NCBI RefSeq assembly: GCF_017355785.1
Contig: NZ_JAFEWE010000013.1
Coordinates: 62,001 to 126,000 of the forward strand
Reading direction: 5' to 3'
DNA: 64,000 nt
DNA from: Desertivirga arenae
Lineage (GTDB): Bacteria > Bacteroidota > Bacteroidia > Sphingobacteriales > Sphingobacteriaceae
Positions 21,095-31,188 of the stretch are shown here, in pieces. The stretch's first letter is position 1; each line of letters begins with the position of its first letter. Under the pieces are notes generated by a model. The model was not told the origin of the DNA and searched no databases. It saw only the letters and a list, made by a program, of their open reading frames with translations. The position numbers and the translations under genes were made by a program.

Positions 21095-22048
21095 ATGAAT
21101 CTTTTGGACCTTATTTTAGTACTTATACTCGTTTTTTCTGTTTGGCAGGGGATTTTGAAAGGCTTCATGATCGGAATGGTCGAAGTCTTCCTGTGGGTTT
21201 CCGGACTGCTCCTTGCTTTTATCTGCTACCCCTATATTTCAACCTTTATACAAAGATATATTGCCACTGGTATTTGGGTTTCACCTGTTTCTTTTATTCT
21301 TGCCATTATCGTTACACGATTGACCCTTTCAGCGATTGCTAACTATGTACTTTCAAAAATTCCTTCAATTTATCATGCCTCCAGACTGAACAAGGTGCTG
21401 GGAAGTGTTCCCGGAGGATTTACAGGGATAGTTTACCTGCTGCTGATAACCTCTTTACTAATCTTATTTCCTGTTAGTCCCTCACTTAAGTCGAGGGCTG
21501 AAAGGAGCTGGGTGGTCTCGCAGTTAATACCAGGCCTTGAGAAGATCCATCTTGCGATCTCTCCTTATATAGAAGAGTTGGAGAAGCAATCGGGGCCCTT
21601 ACTTACGCTTAATAAGAAAAACGACAAGTTCATTAAATTGAATTTTACAGTGGCCCATACAAAGGTCCGAGAGGATTTGGAGGCAAAGATGTTGATTTTG
21701 ATCAATAGGGAGAGGGCGAAAGTTAATCTTCAGCCCCTTCGGGCTGATCAGGAAATAGCGGTTGTGGCCAGAGCTCATTCGGCGGATATGTTCGCCAGAG
21801 GGTATTTTTCTCACTATACTCCAGAAAATAAATCACCTTTTGATCGAATGCGAGCTGCAAAAGTGAGATTCCTGACAGCGGGAGAAAATCTTGCTCTGGC
21901 TCAAACCTTAACTATTGCCCACGAAGGCCTTATGAACTCTCCGGGACACCGGGCTAATATTCTCCATAAATCTTTTGGCAGGGTCGGAATTGGGATATTG
22001 GACGGGGGGATTTACGGTTTAATGGTAACGCAAAACTTTCGGAACTGA
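21095..22048 (+). CDS. CvpA-CAP domain fusion protein
   Basis: A 317-aa membrane protein. Residues about 1-150 form a CvpA (colicin V production)-like domain with four hydrophobic helices (MNLLDLILVLILVFSVWQGI; GFMIGMVEVFLWVSGLL). After a linker, residues about 190-317 are a CAP/SCP (YkwD-like) domain with INRERAKVNLQPLRAD, the His in RAHSADMFARGYFSH, GENLALA and SPGHRANIL. The CAP domain should face the periplasm. Functions of both families are poorly defined; a cell-envelope role is likely. It is probably cotranscribed with the DUF4112 gene 17 nt downstream. Confidence 0.82.
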   Translation: MNLLDLILVLILVFSVWQGILKGFMIGMVEVFLWVSGLLLAFICYPYISTFIQRYIATGIWVSPVSFILAIIVTRLTLSAIANYVLSKIPSIYHASRLNKVLGSVPGGFTGIVYLLLITSLLILFPVSPSLKSRAERSWVVSQLIPGLEKIHLAISPYIEELEKQSGPLLTLNKKNDKFIKLNFTVAHTKVREDLEAKMLILINRERAKVNLQPLRADQEIAVVARAHSADMFARGYFSHYTPENKSPFDRMRAAKVRFLTAGENLALAQTLTIAHEGLMNSPGHRANILHKSFGRVGIGILDGGIYGLMVTQNFRN

Positions 22049-22687: not shown

Positions 22688-22915
22688 ATGGGACAGGTTT
22701 TTACTATAAGCCTGCAGGGCGCTAAATTTCATTACCAGTTATTAAAATTGAATCAGAAAAACAGAATGGTGGAGTCGGAAATATTACTACAAGGGAATAC
22801 CGTTACACTATATAAAGATGACAGGGGATGGAAGCAGAAGGAGAACGCATTACCTCTGGTAGATGAGTTGGTTCGAGCAATAGGTAACTCATTGTCTTTA
22901 AGGTACAGAATATAA
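22688..22915 (+). CDS. Small conserved-looking protein, unknown (75 aa)
   Basis: A 75-aa cytosolic protein, mostly predicted beta strand then a C-terminal helix (PLVDELVRAIGNSLSLRYRI). No domain is recognised. An AAAAAGGAAAA purine stretch precedes the ATG by 6 nt. It stands alone between the DUF4112 gene and the phytochrome operon, on the same strand. Coding is supported by a sensible start, an alternating hydrophobic pattern and no overlap with another gene. Confidence 0.55.
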   Translation: MGQVFTISLQGAKFHYQLLKLNQKNRMVESEILLQGNTVTLYKDDRGWKQKENALPLVDELVRAIGNSLSLRYRI

Positions 22916-23071: not shown

Positions 23072-23626
23072 ATGAATTTGAGTTTAGTCCTAAAAGATAA
23101 AACGGACATATCGCATCAACAGCTGGAAAAACTTCTGGTCGGAAAGCTAAAATCAATAGCAGTTGAAGCAGACTACATCGAGATTTTAAAAAAGTTTTAC
23201 GGCTACATTAAGCCGCTCGAAGAAAGGATAAGTAAAAATCTTGATATAAATAAGGTGCCTGATTATCCTGAAAGAAGAAAATCTGATGCATTAGAACTAG
23301 ATTTACAGTACTTCAACACTACTTCAGACGTGTCTTTATGTGACGACCTTCCTGTAGTAACAAACACGTATGAGGCCATTGGTGCGTTATATGTTTTGGA
23401 AGGTTCTACACTTGGGGGAACAATCATAAGTAAAATGGTTTCTGCTAAGCTTGGTCTTAGTGCTTCTGAGGGCCTTTCTTTTTTTTATTCTTATGGTAGT
23501 GAAACGATGAAGATGTGGGAGCAATTTAAAATTGCTTTAAATACTAGGGTGGCTGAAGAAGACTGGAATATGGTAATAATTGGCGCCGATGAGACTTTTA
23601 TTAAATTTAGAAATTGGCTAGAATGA
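23072..23626 (+). CDS. bphO: Biliverdin-producing heme oxygenase (BphO-like)
   Basis: A 184-aa bacterial heme oxygenase, expected to open heme to biliverdin, iron and CO, thereby supplying the chromophore of the neighbouring phytochrome. The proximal heme ligand is H15 in DISHQQLEKLL. The distal-helix block GALYVLEGSTLGGTIISKM is typical. ATG 23072 replaces an upstream in-frame GTG (23024), which would add 16 residues before the conserved start. Its stop overlaps the phytochrome ATG (ATGA), so the two are translationally coupled. Electron donor not identified here. Confidence 0.85.
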   Translation: MNLSLVLKDKTDISHQQLEKLLVGKLKSIAVEADYIEILKKFYGYIKPLEERISKNLDINKVPDYPERRKSDALELDLQYFNTTSDVSLCDDLPVVTNTYEAIGALYVLEGSTLGGTIISKMVSAKLGLSASEGLSFFYSYGSETMKMWEQFKIALNTRVAEEDWNMVIIGADETFIKFRNWLE

Positions 23627-25140
23627 GCAAAAAGAATTATGACTCCGAATTTTGTGGTAGTTTGCCCTTACATCACATCAATCAGATCCAGCCTTACGGA
23701 TACTTGCTTGTGTTGAACAAGGAAGATTTGAAAATTGTTCAGGCAAGTGAAAACATATCTGAAGTTTTCGGTAAAGATGTTGCTGATGTAGTGGATTCTA
23801 ATCTTTCTGATTTCGTAAATGAGGAACACATCAGATTACTTGAAGATAGTTTCTCTAAAACAATTTCTGATAAGATACCTCTTAATTTATATATTAAAAA
23901 AGGCGACACTCAGGCAGAATACATTGCGCTGGTGCACAAGAAAGATGAGCTGTTGGTAGCGGAATTGGAAAAGGCTGATACGAGGAAGTCATTTACGGAA
24001 GTGTTTCAAGAGATGAAGTATGTGATGGCTGAAGTGAATTCTGCAATTTCTATTGAATCCATTTGCCAGATCTCCGTTGCTGCTTTGAAAAAACTCGCTG
24101 GTTTTGACCGCGTATTGATGTATCAATTCGACGCAGATTGGAACGGAACGGTCATTGCCGAAGAGAGGGAACAAGATATGGAGCCTTACATAGGTCTTAA
24201 ATTTCCAGCTTCTGATATTCCAAGGCAAGCAAGAGCCCTCTATCTCAAAAATCCCTATCGATTAATTCCGAACCGCGAGGATAAGCCGGTTAAGGTTTAT
24301 CCTGTGATTAACCCACTTACTAATTCCTTTATAGATCTTACCGACTGTAACCTTCGTAGTGTTGCGGGGGTGCATTTAGAATATATGGAGAACATGGGAA
24401 TAAAAGCTTCCATGTCAATCCGTATCATTCGTAATGGTCATTTATGGGCTTTGATATCCTGTCATCACCGGGAGGCAAAATACTTGAATTACGAGCTGTG
24501 TTCGGTTTTTGAACTCCTGTCGGAATTGATCTCCTCTAAAATTACTTCTATGTTGTATCAGGAGCAATTTGAGTATAAGAGTACGTTATGGGAGAAGAAG
24601 AGATTGGTGTTGGACGGTATTTATAGCATTAACGAACTGTTTTCAGGCCTTATTCAAAAAGATAAAGACCTTTTGGAATTATTCAATGCCGGGGGATTAG
24701 CGCTGGTGTACAAAGGTAAAGTGCATTTACACGGCCAAACACCACCAGTGGAGGATGTGAAGCATCTGGTTTTTTGGTTGCAACACAAGACAATTTCGGA
24801 GGCGTATTTTGAAAACAGCCTCTCTGCTGCCTTTGAGCCTGCCCAAAATTTTGCAGAAGAGGCCAGTGGATTGCTCGCTATACCCGTTGGTGGAAGAAAT
24901 GAAGATTTTCTTTTGCTTTTCAGGCCGGAGGTGCAAACAACGGTTAATTGGGGAGGAAATCCTGGGGAAGCGATTAGATTTGAGCCAGATGGGAAAAAAT
25001 ATCACCCCCGAAACTCTTTTTCTATATGGCAGGAAACGGTCCGGAAGACTGCCTTACCCTGGGATGCAGAAGAAGTAAAGGTTGCAGAAAGCCTTAGAAG
25101 CTTTATATTTGAATATTCTACTAAATACATATATAGTTAG
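23623..25140 (+). CDS. Bacteriophytochrome photosensory core without kinase
   Basis: A 505-aa biliverdin-binding photoreceptor with PAS (about 11-110), GAF (about 122-300) and PHY (about 310-498) domains, and nothing after PHY. The chromophore Cys is C11 in SEFCGSLPLHHINQIQPYGY. GAF signatures are PASDIPRQARALY (from 195), HLEYMENMGI (from 251) and SCHHREA. The PHY tongue shows WGGNP (443-447) and PRNSFSIW (from 462). The normal C-terminal histidine kinase is missing, and the stop follows the PHY helix directly. It is coupled to heme oxygenase upstream, and the hybrid kinase starts 15 nt downstream. It probably signals by binding that kinase; this is inference. Confidence 0.9.
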   Translation: MSKKNYDSEFCGSLPLHHINQIQPYGYLLVLNKEDLKIVQASENISEVFGKDVADVVDSNLSDFVNEEHIRLLEDSFSKTISDKIPLNLYIKKGDTQAEYIALVHKKDELLVAELEKADTRKSFTEVFQEMKYVMAEVNSAISIESICQISVAALKKLAGFDRVLMYQFDADWNGTVIAEEREQDMEPYIGLKFPASDIPRQARALYLKNPYRLIPNREDKPVKVYPVINPLTNSFIDLTDCNLRSVAGVHLEYMENMGIKASMSIRIIRNGHLWALISCHHREAKYLNYELCSVFELLSELISSKITSMLYQEQFEYKSTLWEKKRLVLDGIYSINELFSGLIQKDKDLLELFNAGGLALVYKGKVHLHGQTPPVEDVKHLVFWLQHKTISEAYFENSLSAAFEPAQNFAEEASGLLAIPVGGRNEDFLLLFRPEVQTTVNWGGNPGEAIRFEPDGKKYHPRNSFSIWQETVRKTALPWDAEEVKVAESLRSFIFEYSTKYIYS

Positions 25141-25155
25141 GGCGGCTTTACATCT

Positions 25156-28100
25156 ATGGAAAAGACGGTGAACGAAGGTTTAATACAAAGGAATTCTACA
25201 AAGCTAGATCATTATGTGGTTGCTATTGGCGCGTCTGCTGGTGGTTTGGAGGCTATTCATGAATTCTTTGATAATATGCCCACTAACGCTAACTTTTCTT
25301 TCATAGTCATTCAGCATTTGTCTCCTGATTATAAAAGTTTGCTTGTGGAGCTGGTATCTAAGCATACCCACATGAAAGTCTTCGAAGCTGGAGATAAAAT
25401 GACGGTGCAAAAGGAATGTATCTATGTAATTCCCAATAATAAGTTAATGACTATTTATAATGGGAAGTTGCATTTGGTGGAAAAGGTTCCGGATAAGCAA
25501 CCCAATACGGCTATCGACCATTTCCTTTATTCTTTAGCACAGGAAAAAAAGGACAAAGCAATTGCTATTATCCTTTCAGGAACAGGTTCTGACGGTACAA
25601 GGGGGATTGAGGTGATCAAAAATACAGGAGGAATGGTCATTGTGCAGGATCCGGTGACTGCAAAGTTCGATGGGATGCCAAACAGTGCAATCGCCTCTGG
25701 CAACGCAGATCTTATCCTGCCCCCTGAGATGATTCCCGAAGAGATCTATAATCATGTAAACGAAGCTCCGATCCTTGTTCTGAATAAGGGCAAAATAGAC
25801 GATAATTTACTCGATGAGATCTTTAACTTGATCCATAAAGCCCACGGTTACGATTTCCACTACTATAAAACGCCTACTATCATCAGAAGGATAGGAAAGA
25901 GGATGGGGCAACATAACATCAAAAAATTAGATGATTATGTTACTGTTCTTAGGCAAAGTCCCGAAGAAGTTAAGAGCTTAAGTAAGGACTTTTTGATAGG
26001 CGTAACCCGTTTTTTTAGGGATAAACAAGCCTTCGACTCGATTTCACAACAGGTTTTACCGGATATCATTAATGACAAACACGACGGAGACATACTGAAG
26101 GTTTGGATTTGTGCTTGTAGTACCGGGGAAGAAGCCTACTCACTCGCTATACTTATCGACCAGTATCTGCAACGTTTCAGACGTTTGCTTGAGGTTAAGA
26201 TATTTGCTACCGATATTGATGAAAGCAGTATTGGGTTTGCTGCAAAAAATTTATATCCTCAGTCTATCGAGAAAGATATAGATGAAGATACCCTTAAAAA
26301 GTATTTTGTTAAGGAAGGTAAATTCTATTCTATTATTCCCCGGATTCGTAAACAAATAGTATTTGCCAGGCATAATGTAATTAAAGATCCTCCTTTTATA
26401 AAAAACGATCTGGTAAGCTGCAGAAATATGCTCATTTATATGAATAGCGTGTTGCAGCAGAAGGTGATGAATACCCTTCACTTTTCTATTAATACGGGAG
26501 GCTATCTGTTCCTTGGAACAAGCGAGACAGCCGCATCCATTAAAGACTCGGTAGATGAAGTCAATAGTAAGTGGAAGATCTACCGTAAGATTGGAAAAAA
26601 CCGTATATCTCCTTTCGAGGTTTACCGGCAACTGGATAATAAGGGCGAGCAGCCCAGGGTTTCCCCGTCTATCATAAAGGCGTCACAGAAGAAGACTAAT
26701 CCTCTGGCTGATGACCTCACAGAAGCAATTATAGATGACTTTGGTTATGTGTGTTTCTACATAGACAAGAATTACGAGATTAAAGAATCAGTAGGAAATT
26801 TCAGCCGGTTTTTATCTCTTCCTGAGAAAAAGCTTAATCTGAACATTTTGAAAATGGTGCCTCAGGAGCTCTCGGTTGCATTGAATACAGCAATTCGCAA
26901 GAGCTGGAAAGAGGAGAAGAAGGTTTTTCTTAAGAGCGTGCGGGTGAAACAGGACCAGGTTGATCTGTTCTTAAGTATCTCTGTAAGGCCCGCCCAGCCT
27001 CTTCAGGGTAAACCATATACCTTGGTGGTGCTTGGCGAGAACAGCCTTAGTCAGGTTCATGTGCGGGAGGAAAGTTATCCTATACCTAGTCACGAACACA
27101 ACGAATACGTTGCCGAGTTGGAGGCGGAGTTGAATGAAACCAGGTCCAATCTCCAGATGGCCGTAGAGGGATTGGAAACTACCAACGAAGAATTACAGTC
27201 GAGCAATGAAGAGCTGCTTTCAGCGAATGAAGAGTTGCAGTCAAGTAATGAGGAGCTTCAGTCGCTTAACGAGGAACTGCATACCTTGAATACTGAGCAT
27301 CAGCTTAAGATTAAGGAGCTGATCGAGCTAAATGATGACCTTAATAATTATTTCAGAAGCACCGATATTGGGCAGATCTTTATTGATAGAAATCAAAATA
27401 TCAGGAAGTTTAACGCTTCTGCATTAAGACTGGTTAACTTAATTGAGGGAGATATTGGCCGGCCTATCAGTCATATTTCTACCAACATCCGGTACGAAAA
27501 CCTCGTCAGAGATATTACACATGTTATAGAGACGGATGATATTGTAGAAAAGGAAATTATTCTTACGAATGATACCAGGTTTCTCATGAGGATAATGCCT
27601 TATGTAAGACAGGATAAGCGTACCGATGGAGCTATAATTACTTTTGTTGATATTTCAGCAATTGCAAATCTTAATAACATTATAAATGGAGTGTTCAACT
27701 CCAGTTTAAGTTCGATCATTGCCTTTAAAGCAGTTAGAAACTACAATAGCCAGATTGAAGATTTTGTTATACTTACCTGTAACTATGCTTCTGACGCTAT
27801 ATTAGGAGGAAGTATAAATCAGGCTGGTAAGCATTTGAAAGAGATTAGCAGCTTATCTGGTACTGATTTCTCAAACAGCTGCATTTCAGTGGTAGAAAAA
27901 GGTGCTCCTCTTCATACTGAACTGAACATTGATGACCGCTGGTATGAGATTGTGGCAGTGAAAATGATGGACGGCTTCGTAGCTACGTTTACTGATATAA
28001 CAGATAAACGAGATGGGGAGCAGAAGCTGAGACAAAATTATAACGAACTGATCTCTGTCAGGGAGAACCTAAAGAAACTTAATCTTGAACTGGAAGATAA

Positions 28101-30747
28101 GGTGGCAGAGAGGACCCGGGAACTAAGCGTATCTGAAGAAAGATTCAGGTTGGTTTCCAGGGCAACAAATGATGCTATCTGGGATTGGGATCTAGTGAAT
28201 AATAGTTTGTGGTGGAGTGATAGCTTCTTTAAACTGTTTGGCTACGAGTATTTTGAAGAGGTTAACAGCAGTAATTTCTGGTTCAGCAAGATCCATCCTG
28301 AGGATAGGGAAAGAGTAAGAAAAAGTATCAATTCGGTTATCAACACAGGCAGTGATCAATGGAGCGAGGAGTATCGTTTTGAGAAAAAGGACGGTTCATT
28401 CGCATGCATCCTTGACCGGGGCTATTTGCTACAGGATGAATACGGAACGCCCTACCGGATGCTCGGTTCGAGATTGGATATTTCGGAGTTGAAAGAAGCT
28501 CAATACCAAATCATTAAAAGTGAAAGCCGGTTCCGGAAAGTGTTTGAATCAAACATGATCGGAATGTTATTTACCAATAAGGATTCGGTGATTATAAATG
28601 CGAATGAGGCCTTCTTGCAAATGATCGGCTATAGCCGGGAGGATTTGAAGAACGGACTTATTACCTGGAGTAGAATTACTCCGCCTGAATTTCTGGAAAG
28701 AAACAGGCTGGCTGCTGAACAAATTTGGAACAGTGGAGTTTGTCCGCCATTTGAGGGTGAGTATTTGCGTAAAGACGGCTCAAGGATGTGTGTGCTGCTG
28801 GGTGCTGCTTCCGTTAGTGAAGACGATGCTGTTGCCGTTACCTATATCATTGATATTACAGAGAAGAAGGACGCCGAGAGAAAGGAACAGGAACTTCAAC
28901 GAATTATACAGAAACAGCAAGATGAGTTCCGGGGTATTTTTATGAATGCTCCTGCGCTTATTTCTATCCGTAGAGGAGAAGATCTACGGGTTGAGTTTGT
29001 GAACCAAACGGCAATGGATTATTTCGGAAGAAATGACCTTGTAGGTAAAAATAATACGGAATTACTAGGGGAATATAAGCCAGAAAGTAAAGAATCGGAC
29101 GAGTTGATCCAGCAGGTTTACAAAACGGGGATCCCATTTTTTGGCAAAGCATTCCACGTTAGATATGATCGGAACAGAACGGGCGTAATAGAAGATGGCT
29201 GGTTCGACTTCGTTTATCAGCCTGTTTATAGTGACGATGGAATTGTAGACGGTGTTGCCACCTTCGCTTTTGATGTCTCTGACATGATCAGGGCTAATCA
29301 GGAGATTAAGAAAAATGAAGGCCGGTTCAGATTTCTTGCCGAATCCATCCCTCAAAAAGTTTGGACTGCAAAACCAGATGGTCTGGGTGACTTTTTCAAT
29401 AAGGTGTGGCTGGACTATACCGGTAAAGAAATGCACGAGCTTGAAGGCTGGCAGTGGCTTGATGTAATACATCCTGAAGATCGGGAGAGGAACAGAGAGC
29501 TATGGGTACAAGCTATTGAAGCTGGTCAGGATTTCGAAATGGAAAGAAGGATCTTAGGCACCGATGGCCAGTACCGATGGCATTTAAGCAGAAGTATTCC
29601 GCAAAAAGATGATAATGGGGAAATCGTCATATGGGTAGGCACAAGTACCGATATTCACGATCAGAAGACAGCCTCCGAGGCGTTGAAGGAGAGTGAAGAT
29701 TATTTCCGTCAATTGGCCGATCAGTCGCCCTTCATGATCTGGAAAGTGGATGAGAAGGGAGATTGTAACTACGTAAATAAAAAATGGATCGCTTTCACGG
29801 GGCTCAGTTTCGATGCTAGTATGGGCCTCGGCTGGAGTAAAGCCTTCCACCAGGATGATGCAGACAAGGAGTATAAGAAGTTCGTTAAGGCCTTCGAGTC
29901 CAGAGAGATCTTCTATTCCAAGTTTCGACTAAGAAGTATAAAAGGAGAGTATCATTGGGTGCTGGCTCAGGCTAACCCGGTATTTGGAGCCTCCTTCGAA
30001 GGGTATATTGGAAGTTTAACTGATATTACGGAACAGGAGTTGGCACAGCAAGCCACTAAATTGTTGATGCAGAAGAAGGACGAGTTCATGAGTATTGCGA
30101 GTCATGAATTAAAAACCCCTATTACGAGCATGAAGGCCTCATTGCAAATTGCTGAGCGTTTGAGTAACCGTAAAGTAGAGGTTGAGAAGATCCAGTCCTT
30201 TATAGAGAAAGCAAACAAACAGGTTAACCGTCTTACTGCATTAGTTGAAGATTTGTTAGATGTAACCAAGATCCAGGCAGGTAAATTGCAGTTTGAAAAG
30301 GATAGGTTCTATATTGACGAGGTAGTTCAGACTTCTGTAGATCAGATGCAGAACGACTCTATCAGGCATACCATTGTTGTTGAAGGGGACAAAGAAATTG
30401 CCGTCTGGGGAGACATGCATCGTCTGGAGCAAGTGATCGTAAATTTCTTGTCCAACGCTATCAAATACTCGCCTGATTCTGATAAAGTATTGGTAAATAT
30501 CAGGAGAGAAGAGGATAAGGTAAGAGTTTATGTAACTGATTTTGGTATCGGGATTCCAGAAGATAAAATTAATTTCGTCTTCGACAGGTTCTTCCGGGTG
30601 CAGGAGTCGTCACAGAAGTTTTCGGGGCTAGGTTTAGGCCTCTTCATATCCGCGGAAATTATAAAACGGCATGAAGGTGACGTTGGTGTTTATAGTGAAG
30701 AAGGTAAGGGTTCAACATTTTGGTTTGATTTGCCTATTGCAGATTAG
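25156..30747 (+). CDS. CheB-CheR-multi-PAS hybrid sensor histidine kinase
   Basis: A 1863-aa cytosolic protein. Residues about 17-200 are a CheB methylesterase domain with triad S27 (IGASAGG), H54 (VIQHLSP) and D146 (GTGSDGT). About 210-480 is a CheR methyltransferase (SAM site WICACSTGEEAYSLAI at 317; NDLVSCRNMLIYM). About 650-730 is a coiled coil of heptads such as NEELQSS. Then come some seven PAS-type domains: about 735-835, 850-950, 995-1110, 1125-1235, 1255-1375, 1390-1500 and 1515-1625, with a degenerate one near 530-625. HisKA (H1650 in SHELKTP) and HATPase (NFLSNAIKYSP, DFGIGIPE, GLGLGLF) close it. There are no transmembrane segments and no receiver domain. It starts 15 nt after the phytochrome. 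Confidence 0.9.
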   Translation: MEKTVNEGLIQRNSTKLDHYVVAIGASAGGLEAIHEFFDNMPTNANFSFIVIQHLSPDYKSLLVELVSKHTHMKVFEAGDKMTVQKECIYVIPNNKLMTIYNGKLHLVEKVPDKQPNTAIDHFLYSLAQEKKDKAIAIILSGTGSDGTRGIEVIKNTGGMVIVQDPVTAKFDGMPNSAIASGNADLILPPEMIPEEIYNHVNEAPILVLNKGKIDDNLLDEIFNLIHKAHGYDFHYYKTPTIIRRIGKRMGQHNIKKLDDYVTVLRQSPEEVKSLSKDFLIGVTRFFRDKQAFDSISQQVLPDIINDKHDGDILKVWICACSTGEEAYSLAILIDQYLQRFRRLLEVKIFATDIDESSIGFAAKNLYPQSIEKDIDEDTLKKYFVKEGKFYSIIPRIRKQIVFARHNVIKDPPFIKNDLVSCRNMLIYMNSVLQQKVMNTLHFSINTGGYLFLGTSETAASIKDSVDEVNSKWKIYRKIGKNRISPFEVYRQLDNKGEQPRVSPSIIKASQKKTNPLADDLTEAIIDDFGYVCFYIDKNYEIKESVGNFSRFLSLPEKKLNLNILKMVPQELSVALNTAIRKSWKEEKKVFLKSVRVKQDQVDLFLSISVRPAQPLQGKPYTLVVLGENSLSQVHVREESYPIPSHEHNEYVAELEAELNETRSNLQMAVEGLETTNEELQSSNEELLSANEELQSSNEELQSLNEELHTLNTEHQLKIKELIELNDDLNNYFRSTDIGQIFIDRNQNIRKFNASALRLVNLIEGDIGRPISHISTNIRYENLVRDITHVIETDDIVEKEIILTNDTRFLMRIMPYVRQDKRTDGAIITFVDISAIANLNNIINGVFNSSLSSIIAFKAVRNYNSQIEDFVILTCNYASDAILGGSINQAGKHLKEISSLSGTDFSNSCISVVEKGAPLHTELNIDDRWYEIVAVKMMDGFVATFTDITDKRDGEQKLRQNYNELISVRENLKKLNLELEDKVAERTRELSVSEERFRLVSRATNDAIWDWDLVNNSLWWSDSFFKLFGYEYFEEVNSSNFWFSKIHPEDRERVRKSINSVINTGSDQWSEEYRFEKKDGSFACILDRGYLLQDEYGTPYRMLGSRLDISELKEAQYQIIKSESRFRKVFESNMIGMLFTNKDSVIINANEAFLQMIGYSREDLKNGLITWSRITPPEFLERNRLAAEQIWNSGVCPPFEGEYLRKDGSRMCVLLGAASVSEDDAVAVTYIIDITEKKDAERKEQELQRIIQKQQDEFRGIFMNAPALISIRRGEDLRVEFVNQTAMDYFGRNDLVGKNNTELLGEYKPESKESDELIQQVYKTGIPFFGKAFHVRYDRNRTGVIEDGWFDFVYQPVYSDDGIVDGVATFAFDVSDMIRANQEIKKNEGRFRFLAESIPQKVWTAKPDGLGDFFNKVWLDYTGKEMHELEGWQWLDVIHPEDRERNRELWVQAIEAGQDFEMERRILGTDGQYRWHLSRSIPQKDDNGEIVIWVGTSTDIHDQKTASEALKESEDYFRQLADQSPFMIWKVDEKGDCNYVNKKWIAFTGLSFDASMGLGWSKAFHQDDADKEYKKFVKAFESREIFYSKFRLRSIKGEYHWVLAQANPVFGASFEGYIGSLTDITEQELAQQATKLLMQKKDEFMSIASHELKTPITSMKASLQIAERLSNRKVEVEKIQSFIEKANKQVNRLTALVEDLLDVTKIQAGKLQFEKDRFYIDEVVQTSVDQMQNDSIRHTIVVEGDKEIAVWGDMHRLEQVIVNFLSNAIKYSPDSDKVLVNIRREEDKVRVYVTDFGIGIPEDKINFVFDRFFRVQESSQKFSGLGLGLFISAEIIKRHEGDVGVYSEEGKGSTFWFDLPIAD

Positions 30748-30788
30748 GGAAATGCAGAATGAACTATTGAAATATATTAATAATTAAA

Positions 30789-30821
30789 TTTTTGCGGGTT
30801 CATTTATTTGTTTTAGCTTTA
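30789..30821 (+). promoter_or_regulatory. Promoter of the response regulator
   Basis: A TTTTTG -33 element (30789-30794) and TAGCTTTA -7 element (30814-30821, one mismatch) are spaced exactly 19 nt. The ATG follows 7 nt later. The gene can therefore be transcribed apart from the kinase. Confidence 0.55.
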
Positions 30822-30828
30822 TGCTTGA

Positions 30829-31188
30829 ATGAAGCGTATAGTAATTTTTGATGATGATGTGGATATTTTAGAAATTCTCACGTATTTACTTACTGAGAAG
30901 GGGTGGGAAGTCCATACGCGAACAACTTGTAACAATATTTTAGAGATAATTTCTGAGAAAAGGCCGGATGTGATCTTAATGGATAACTGGATTCCGGATA
31001 CGGGAGGAATAAAAGCAACGCAATTGCTTAAAGCTGATCCAAAGCTTACTAATATTCCCGTTATTTACTTTTCTGCGAACAATGATGTTGAAATCCTTTC
31101 TCAGAAGGCGGGAGCGGACGCTTACATTGCAAAGCCTTTCGATTTAGACGAGCTTGAGAAGATAGTAAACCAATTTGCTCTTTCTTAA
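30829..31188 (+). CDS. Single-domain response regulator (CheY-like)
   Basis: A 119-aa receiver domain alone. It has the acidic pocket D8-D10 (FDDDVD), phosphoacceptor D52 in ILMDNWIP, S82 in YFSAN and K102 in YIAKPFD. It has no DNA-binding or enzymatic output. It lies 81 nt downstream of the hybrid kinase, is the likely phosphoacceptor, and has its own candidate promoter. Its partner further down the pathway is not encoded in the window. Confidence 0.9.
   Translation: MKRIVIFDDDVDILEILTYLLTEKGWEVHTRTTCNNILEIISEKRPDVILMDNWIPDTGGIKATQLLKADPKLTNIPVIYFSANNDVEILSQKAGADAYIAKPFDLDELEKIVNQFALS

Follow-up and report, generated by a model that had tools for sequence, protein, structure and literature searches.

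A kinase-less phytochrome encoded beside a CheB-CheR hybrid histidine kinase in Desertivirga arenae and other Bacteroidota: a probable split photoreceptor kinase

Gene and domain organization of the locus

Within the window, that is, the whole 64,000-nucleotide stretch of Desertivirga arenae DNA analysed here (contig NZ_JAFEWE010000013.1, positions 62,001 to 126,000), four genes follow one another on the forward strand at 23072-31188, and two of them, coding for a phytochrome that ends at its PHY domain and for a CheB-CheR hybrid histidine kinase (HK), are the subject of this report. The first gene, bphO (23072..23626), starts with the ATG at 23072 and encodes a heme oxygenase of 184 amino acids (aa; Pfam PF01126, 1.2e-16), which is the sole heme oxygenase match of the genome and the presumed source of biliverdin. 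Its stop codon shares the ATGA at 23623-23626 with the start of the phytochrome gene (23623..25140; 505 aa), and 15 nt separate the latter from the kinase gene (25156..30747; 1863 aa), the coordinates, gene order, 4-nt overlap and short gap of the preliminary description of this DNA being thereby confirmed. After a further 81 nt comes a single-domain response regulator (30829..31188; 119 aa; PF00072), a likely phosphate acceptor. Scans of the locus returned 21 sites resembling promoters (22.1 on average after shuffling) and 8 resembling terminators (6.0 after shuffling), and neither count is informative.

The phytochrome matches PAS_2, GAF and PHY only, with no Pfam domain after PHY and too few residues left for one. 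The kinase combines CheB, CheR_N, CheR, a PAS array, HisKA and HATPase_c, and neither GAF nor PHY was detected by Pfam in its 1863 residues, which upholds the earlier statement that it has no photosensory module of its own. From the N-terminus, Pfam and alignments place the CheB methylesterase domain at residues 18-200 (25207..25755), with an intact S27/H54/D146 triad, and the CheR methyltransferase domain at residues 215-476 (25798..26583). These are followed by a Glu-rich coil of NEELQSS heptads at residues 655-728 (27118..27339), a partner-specific insert of PAS, long helix and PAS at residues 838-1110 (27667..28485), additional PAS domains, whose number varies among relatives, at residues 1125-1628 (28528..30039), and HisKA plus HATPase_c, again from Pfam and alignment, at residues 1636-1863 (30061..30744), with His1650; all of them lie on the forward strand. 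The CheB triad, the CheR S-adenosylmethionine-site residues, the HisKA histidine and the HATPase boxes are all present, as expected for a CheB-CheR hybrid histidine kinase.

Chromophore-binding features of the phytochrome

By sequence, the phytochrome is closest in the PDB to FiDCB (340 bits) and Cph1 (337 bits), and its predicted fold matches the sensory modules of Agp1 and Cph1, with the last helix (482-503) running to the C-terminus. Cys11, Asp198 of the PASDIP motif, His251, His281 and the PRxSF tongue motif were all found. In an alignment of 97 phytochrome rows (duplicates included, as in the 92 kinase rows used below, from which the kinases of L080 and L127 were omitted), Cys11, Y167, D198, V250, H251, R463 and S465 are identical in 97/97 and H281 is kept in 93, these being residues required to bind biliverdin and to photoconvert. 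The preliminary description was right about Cys11, PASDIP, the tongue and the end at PHY, and has to be amended regarding its 'CHH' motif, which aligns with H290 of Cph1, the place of Cph1 Cys259 being occupied by Val250. A plant-type chromophore cysteine in the GAF domain is thus ruled out by the Cph1 alignment and by Val250 in 97/97 rows. Because of this valine, the phytochrome is assigned, by sequence, to the biliverdin type with Cys11, and would be expected to bind its chromophore and to respond to light.

The C-terminus lies 21-31 residues from W480, tryptophan included, in all 97 rows (26 in the window protein). This shared end, together with the single clade described below, rules out a frameshifted or truncated canonical phytochrome.

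It might also be considered that the phytochrome serves the same kinase mainly as a sensor of biliverdin or heme status, redox state or temperature, light being incidental. None of the hosts is known to be a phototroph, and a small lineage (L004, L054, L055 and L122) carries Asn at the D-ring histidine H281, both of which would suit such a role. Set against this, seven of the eight photosensory positions do not vary at all among the 97 rows, and the eighth, H281, varies in those four only, so that a sensor to which light is incidental appears quite improbable.

Conservation of the phytochrome-kinase gene pair

Phytochrome matches were found in 65 of 151 genomes searched from the family of the window. 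They comprise a long set (frames of 655-768 aa, 21-32% identity, plus a few fragments), whose fetched members bear an HK, and a kinase-less set (frames of 497-536 aa, 42-56% identity) with 22 members from 21 genomes, the window genome contributing two. A CheB-CheR kinase lies directly downstream in 21/21 kinase-less loci of this search besides the window. A scan of GTDB contigs, which was limited to the best 80 among 590 confirmed matches and so favours near relatives, gave 63 Bacteroidota loci, all kinase-less, of which 61 have the kinase (60 by a strict gap rule, which misses L141, counted as paired, where the kinase overlaps the phytochrome). They belong to Sphingobacteriaceae, Chitinophagaceae, Hymenobacteraceae, Rhodocytophagaceae and unplaced metagenome-assembled genomes (MAGs), and the 17 non-Bacteroidota loci among these 80 were left out of the counts. 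A third set, 146 genomes of the family of G256 (Chitinophagaceae group), held 13 members of the clade, 10 with the kinase, one with a shorter kinase (L213), one with none (L216) and one fused (L215).

The three sample sets overlap, and 15 of 97 phytochrome cores were removed as exact duplicates. Among the distinct kinase-less loci remaining, the kinase lies directly 3' in 79 of 81, or 80 of 82 with the window, counting as paired L080, L109 and L111, whose kinases are truncated at contig ends or divided between two frames. This adjacency rules out a chance neighbourhood of the two genes, and gene-order conservation in relatives, by which the preliminary description had proposed that its reading be judged, thus holds for the pair. 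The flanking genes behave differently: bphO adjoins the pair in 7/21 loci of the family search besides the window, 19/63 of the GTDB scan and 10/12 of the G256 family, and a receiver follows the kinase in 7/21, 8/63 and 6/12 of the same sets, respectively. Both are therefore optional, and of the four-gene module proposed earlier the two-gene core of phytochrome and kinase stands, whereas bphO and the receiver cannot be kept as fixed members. A heme oxygenase match occurs somewhere in 21/21 searched family genomes with a split phytochrome.

Seen from the kinase side, the 151 genomes contain 24 close relatives of the window kinase (at least 54% identity; the next at 44%), 22 of them beside a kinase-less phytochrome and two at loci that lost it, in a search that scored six candidates per genome and under-counts weaker kinases. 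In the 1.5-kb flanks of the HK-bearing phytochromes examined there is no CheB-CheR match and, as judged by frame length, none of the clade members is fused to CheB-CheR itself. Of the other frames with phytochrome-type matches, the two longest are an unrelated protein of 1791 aa without CheB/CheR (G518) and a different phytochrome kinase of 1222 aa (G386). The latter (L225, 4343-8011) resembles phytochromes but is of a different kind, and the histidine kinase at its C-terminus is distinct.

The window genome (G000) has three phytochromes and one heme oxygenase match. Its second split pair (L004, 5206-11145, minus strand, contig C23) has no bphO beside it, its phytochrome is one of those with Asn at the D-ring histidine, and the pair groups with those of G116 and G136 (L054 and L055). 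A canonical HK-bearing phytochrome is also present (L005, 7538-9769, plus strand), with receivers and a PAS kinase upstream.

A segment specific to phytochrome-linked kinases

Key residues of CheB, CheR, HisKA and HATPase are strongly conserved, with 10 of 11 positions identical in 92/92 partner kinases and the remaining one being E in 77 and Q in 15. For comparison, 14 orphan CheB-CheR-PAS kinases were hand-picked from the kinase search list of a single family, no phytochrome being present in the fetched loci of any of the 14. Partner and orphan kinases have in common CheB, CheR, the middle region, the Glu-rich coil and PAS_10, with 33-44% identity over the N-terminal 815 aa. The orphans differ in their length (867-1222 aa, one of 1931) and in the insert at residues 838-1110 (PAS, coil, PAS_3), which they lack or match weakly. 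Its first part was found in 72/73 partner kinases and 1/14 orphans, its second in 73/73 and 1/14, and its third in 73/73 and 2/14, every orphan match being weak (20 bits at most). When residues 838-1018 were used as query in the 151 genomes, 24 loci scored 126-387 bits and the next at most 57.5 bits; these 24 are the very loci of the close kinase relatives, 22 beside a kinase-less phytochrome and two with the phytochrome deleted.

The structure predicted for residues 836-1115 consists of a PAS domain, a 53-residue helix and a second PAS domain (pLDDT 86.1, pTM 0.48). The model is closest to the LOV-PAS of a LOV histidine kinase and to other PAS pairs, PpsR included, which is generic PAS similarity. 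Considering its distribution, the insert would be the most likely docking site of the phytochrome.

Related histories of phytochrome and kinase

In photosensory trees, built after removal of near-identical rows (27 of 148), the kinase-less forms and the fused L215 make up a single clade (support 100, starred, in one tree; 100/99, starred, in another), the 'split' label of L193 being a contig-end artefact. For 70 pairs, the tree distances of the phytochromes and of the N-terminal halves of the kinases are correlated, with a Mantel r of 0.80 against 0.17 for the best of 2000 permutations, in a test that leaves shared species history in. The two trees have 48 of 67 splits in common, and the nearest neighbour is the same for 47 of the 70 pairs. 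Agreement also extends across families, since both trees join the Taibaiella pair (L112) to L052/L053, which belong to the family of the window.

The HK ends of the partner kinases (C-terminal ~255 aa) fall into three groups, one mainly of Sphingobacteriaceae, one of the Chitinophagaceae group, and one of Pontibacter plus Rhodocytophaga. The CheB-CheR-PAS half stays related across all three, and the kinase end thus seems to have been exchanged.

Fusion, short partner and the role of CheB/CheR

G591 encodes a 752-aa protein in which a phytochrome of the clade (L215) is fused to HisKA/HATPase. The best tree places the HK of this protein together with 17 partner kinases from the Chitinophagaceae group (90/94, not starred; the quick tree gives 96, starred), and its grouping with all 13 tested canonical phytochrome kinases is rejected by the approximately unbiased (AU) test (p 0.0048). 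The best tree of photosensory sequences has the phytochrome portion of the fusion nested in the clade, and 0% of bootstrap trees separate the split forms from it. The fusion agrees, though not decisively, with the two partners having been joined. An unlinked CheB-CheR kinase of 1209 aa is also encoded in the same genome; of the three parts of the insert, it has the first only. In a further variant (L127/L213), the phytochrome adjoins a kinase of 795 aa without CheB/CheR that retains the coil, PAS_3 and the HK.

These variants bear on the possibility that the phytochrome acts with the CheB/CheR half, light altering how a protein target is methylated or demethylated, with a secondary part for the histidine kinase. 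The integrity of the CheB and CheR residues in 92/92 partner kinases, bar one E/Q position, would favour such an action. Nonetheless, (i) the short partner has no CheB/CheR, (ii) the G591 fusion comprises phytochrome and HK only, (iii) orphan kinases have the same CheB/CheR with no phytochrome in their fetched loci, and (iv) the chemoreceptor signalling domain (PF00015, E 0.001) gave no match in 21 of 23 genomes, a fragment below the cut-off in one, and a match above it only in the window genome. Light control through CheB/CheR in place of the kinase is therefore very improbable. From the last observation it is likewise unlikely that the CheB/CheR domains serve chemoreceptors in general; in the window genome, given its PF00015 match, a chemoreceptor substrate may exist. 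That genome contains one MCPsignal gene (G000:C12:521541-522020; 561-aa frame), with none above the cut-off in the 22 others searched.

The NEELQSS coil resembles the methylation helices of chemoreceptors, a resemblance to be taken as a speculative lead. No site in the coil matches the chemoreceptor methylation consensus in its form with two residues ahead of Glx-Glx. The form Glx-Glx-xx-[ASTG][ASTG] has three matches, a number reached by 23 of 5000 shuffles, and a form with one residue before Glx-Glx, chosen after viewing the coil, also has three, reached by 0 of 5000. The coil is found in orphan kinases too. A chemoreceptor-free, two-protein adaptive photoreceptor may be imagined, in which the phytochrome would sit on the insert while the kinase's own CheR and CheB would methylate and demethylate the coil, providing light adaptation within the complex. 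A phytochrome-HK fusion would make the insert unneeded, in agreement with G591. An adaptive photoreceptor of this design seems to us rather unlikely.

Losses of the phytochrome and strength of the coupling

A number of observations weigh against a dedicated pair. Regarding the sampling and the trees, the GTDB scan leans towards near relatives, species history is a contributor to the correlated phylogenies, and the output half is not constant, as the three groups of HK ends indicate. The fusion is likewise less clear-cut than its best tree suggests: grouping of its HK with the canonical L175 and L185 alone stands unrejected (AU p 0.16), these two being, in the HK tree, closest to the 17 partner kinases, and neither a position of its HK as sister to the 17 (AU p 0.27) nor a placement of its photosensory part outside the split forms, as their sister (AU p 0.08), is rejected. 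At L135/L216, bphO and the phytochrome have no adjacent kinase, and no fused CheB-CheR kinase was matched in that genome. Finally, in G006 and G034 the kinase and receiver frames are intact despite loss of the phytochrome, and both kinases retain the insert. No acceleration of the kinase was detected after such loss, the non-synonymous proportions relative to G031 being 0.217 for G034 and 0.213 for G011, and those relative to the window kinase 0.226 and 0.221; dN/dS dating failed on saturation of dS, and relative rates alone are usable.

In G006, the phytochrome is cut to its first ~23 and last ~20 codons by an internal deletion, as established by eye and from DNA matches, and bphO is absent from the locus; a heme oxygenase match exists elsewhere in the genome, where an HK-bearing phytochrome is still present. 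In G034, bphO is truncated, the phytochrome is deleted, and the genome has no heme oxygenase match. The kinase can thus outlast its phytochrome, at least for some time, and, since two lineages dispensed with the phytochrome but not with the kinase, the latter probably has further inputs and probably does not depend on the phytochrome alone.

Such losses could be understood if phytochrome and kinase were co-regulated neighbours serving a common physiology, the phytochrome signalling elsewhere, for example to another kinase, and the kinase reading other cues via its own PAS domains. The wide variation in PAS domain number, the three groups of HK ends and the genome having the phytochrome without the kinase point in the same direction. 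Left unexplained would be why one kinase-less clade stays beside one kinase family across several bacterial families, and why the PAS-coil-PAS insert is confined to the linked kinases, and mere co-regulation is, in our estimation, distinctly unlikely. Phytochrome and CheB-CheR-PAS kinase therefore probably form a dedicated split photoreceptor kinase that signals in trans. The proposal of a split pair in the preliminary description gains from the adjacency in several families, from the correlated phylogenies, from the restriction of the insert to phytochrome-linked kinases and, less firmly, from the natural fusion; in a strict form it does not agree with G006 and G034.

From these data we infer the following course for contact, docking, phosphotransfer, CheB/CheR action and light control. 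BphO would make biliverdin, which the phytochrome would bind via Cys11. Red or far-red light would then switch the PAS-GAF-PHY module, whose last helix stops 21-31 residues from the conserved W480, and the presumably dimeric module, instead of pulling a covalently attached kinase, would dock on the separate one, most likely on the insert at residues 838-1110. Docking would alter autophosphorylation at His1650, with the phosphate passing to the lone receiver, encoded here by the next gene. The remaining PAS domains would supply further inputs, and CheB/CheR probably act on the kinase that carries them, modifying it for adaptation.

Comparison with known systems

Canonical BphP kinases of the DrBphP, Agp1 and Cph1 type are similar in their PAS-GAF-PHY core, N-terminal Cys (in BphP), heme oxygenase partner, and HK and response regulator output. 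Cys11 and Val250, both in 97/97 rows, agree with the canonical BphP arrangement by sequence. On the contrary, the kinase is covalently attached there, while here the protein ends after PHY, with no C-terminal histidine kinase, and the kinase is separate and far larger; in line with this, the window phytochrome scores 295 bits with the NCBIfam BphP model, against a cut-off of 1040.

RpBphP1, which acts with PpsR2, and XccBphP are kinase-less phytochromes as well, with a PAS9-type C-terminal output in both, whereas here nothing lies past PHY and the partner is a kinase. According to an excerpt of PMC6899989, RpBphP1 associates with another protein in a light-induced complex, retains a C-terminal PAS9 plus two-helix output domain and binds a gene repressor. 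A stand-alone sensor acting on a separate histidine kinase is exemplified by H-NOX, which, as an excerpt of PMC7108781 describes, controls HnoK by binding; unlike the present pair, that system senses gas or redox state, involves unrelated protein families and has no CheB/CheR. The arrangement expected of a trans sensor-kinase pair, a lone sensor conserved beside a kinase without that sensor domain, is seen here in 80/82 loci. Short LOV proteins and sensory rhodopsin-Htr are further photoreceptors without an attached effector, although with other folds; in an excerpt of PMC6798134, short LOV proteins presumably signal in trans, with no dedicated histidine kinase partner named for them, and a 2:2 complex of sensory rhodopsin (SR) and Htr is known. 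HK genes also occur in operons with a photoactive yellow protein gene (pyp operons), as stated in an excerpt of PMC12826048.

A large phytochrome phylogeny kept, as far as an excerpt of PMC4422448 indicates, only proteins with PGP plus HK, and would therefore have omitted the kinase-less clade. Among the matches listed in a literature search over titles and abstract beginnings, which lay wholly outside bioRxiv and mostly outside subscription papers, there was no kinase-less phytochrome paired with a CheB-CheR kinase.

Models of phytochrome signalling assume a continuous helix from PHY into the kinase. A clade in which this helix has ended and the kinase is separate offers a direct test of whether docking alone passes the light signal, and the split system supplies separable components for controlling kinases with red light. 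A defined input is gained for one group of CheB-CheR-PAS kinases, and the natural variants, namely the G591 fusion, the L127 partner without CheB/CheR, and the G006 and G034 losses, lead to testable predictions on the signal-receiving segment.

Neighbouring genes and other observations

Upstream of bphO, the window contains a 75-codon open reading frame (MGQVFTI...LRYRI; 22688-22915, plus strand), which is kept at the same place in G006 (L056, 3363-3590) and G034 (L061, 9287-9517). A protein with a membrane N-terminal half and an SCP/CAP-like C-terminal half, domains being assigned by eye, is encoded at 21095-22048 (plus strand) and is syntenic in L056 and L061. An Armatimonadaceae MAG (L137, 9965-12283) encodes a phytochrome with a C-terminal region that, by eye, resembles SpoIIE/PP2C-type phosphatases, with a heme oxygenase upstream.

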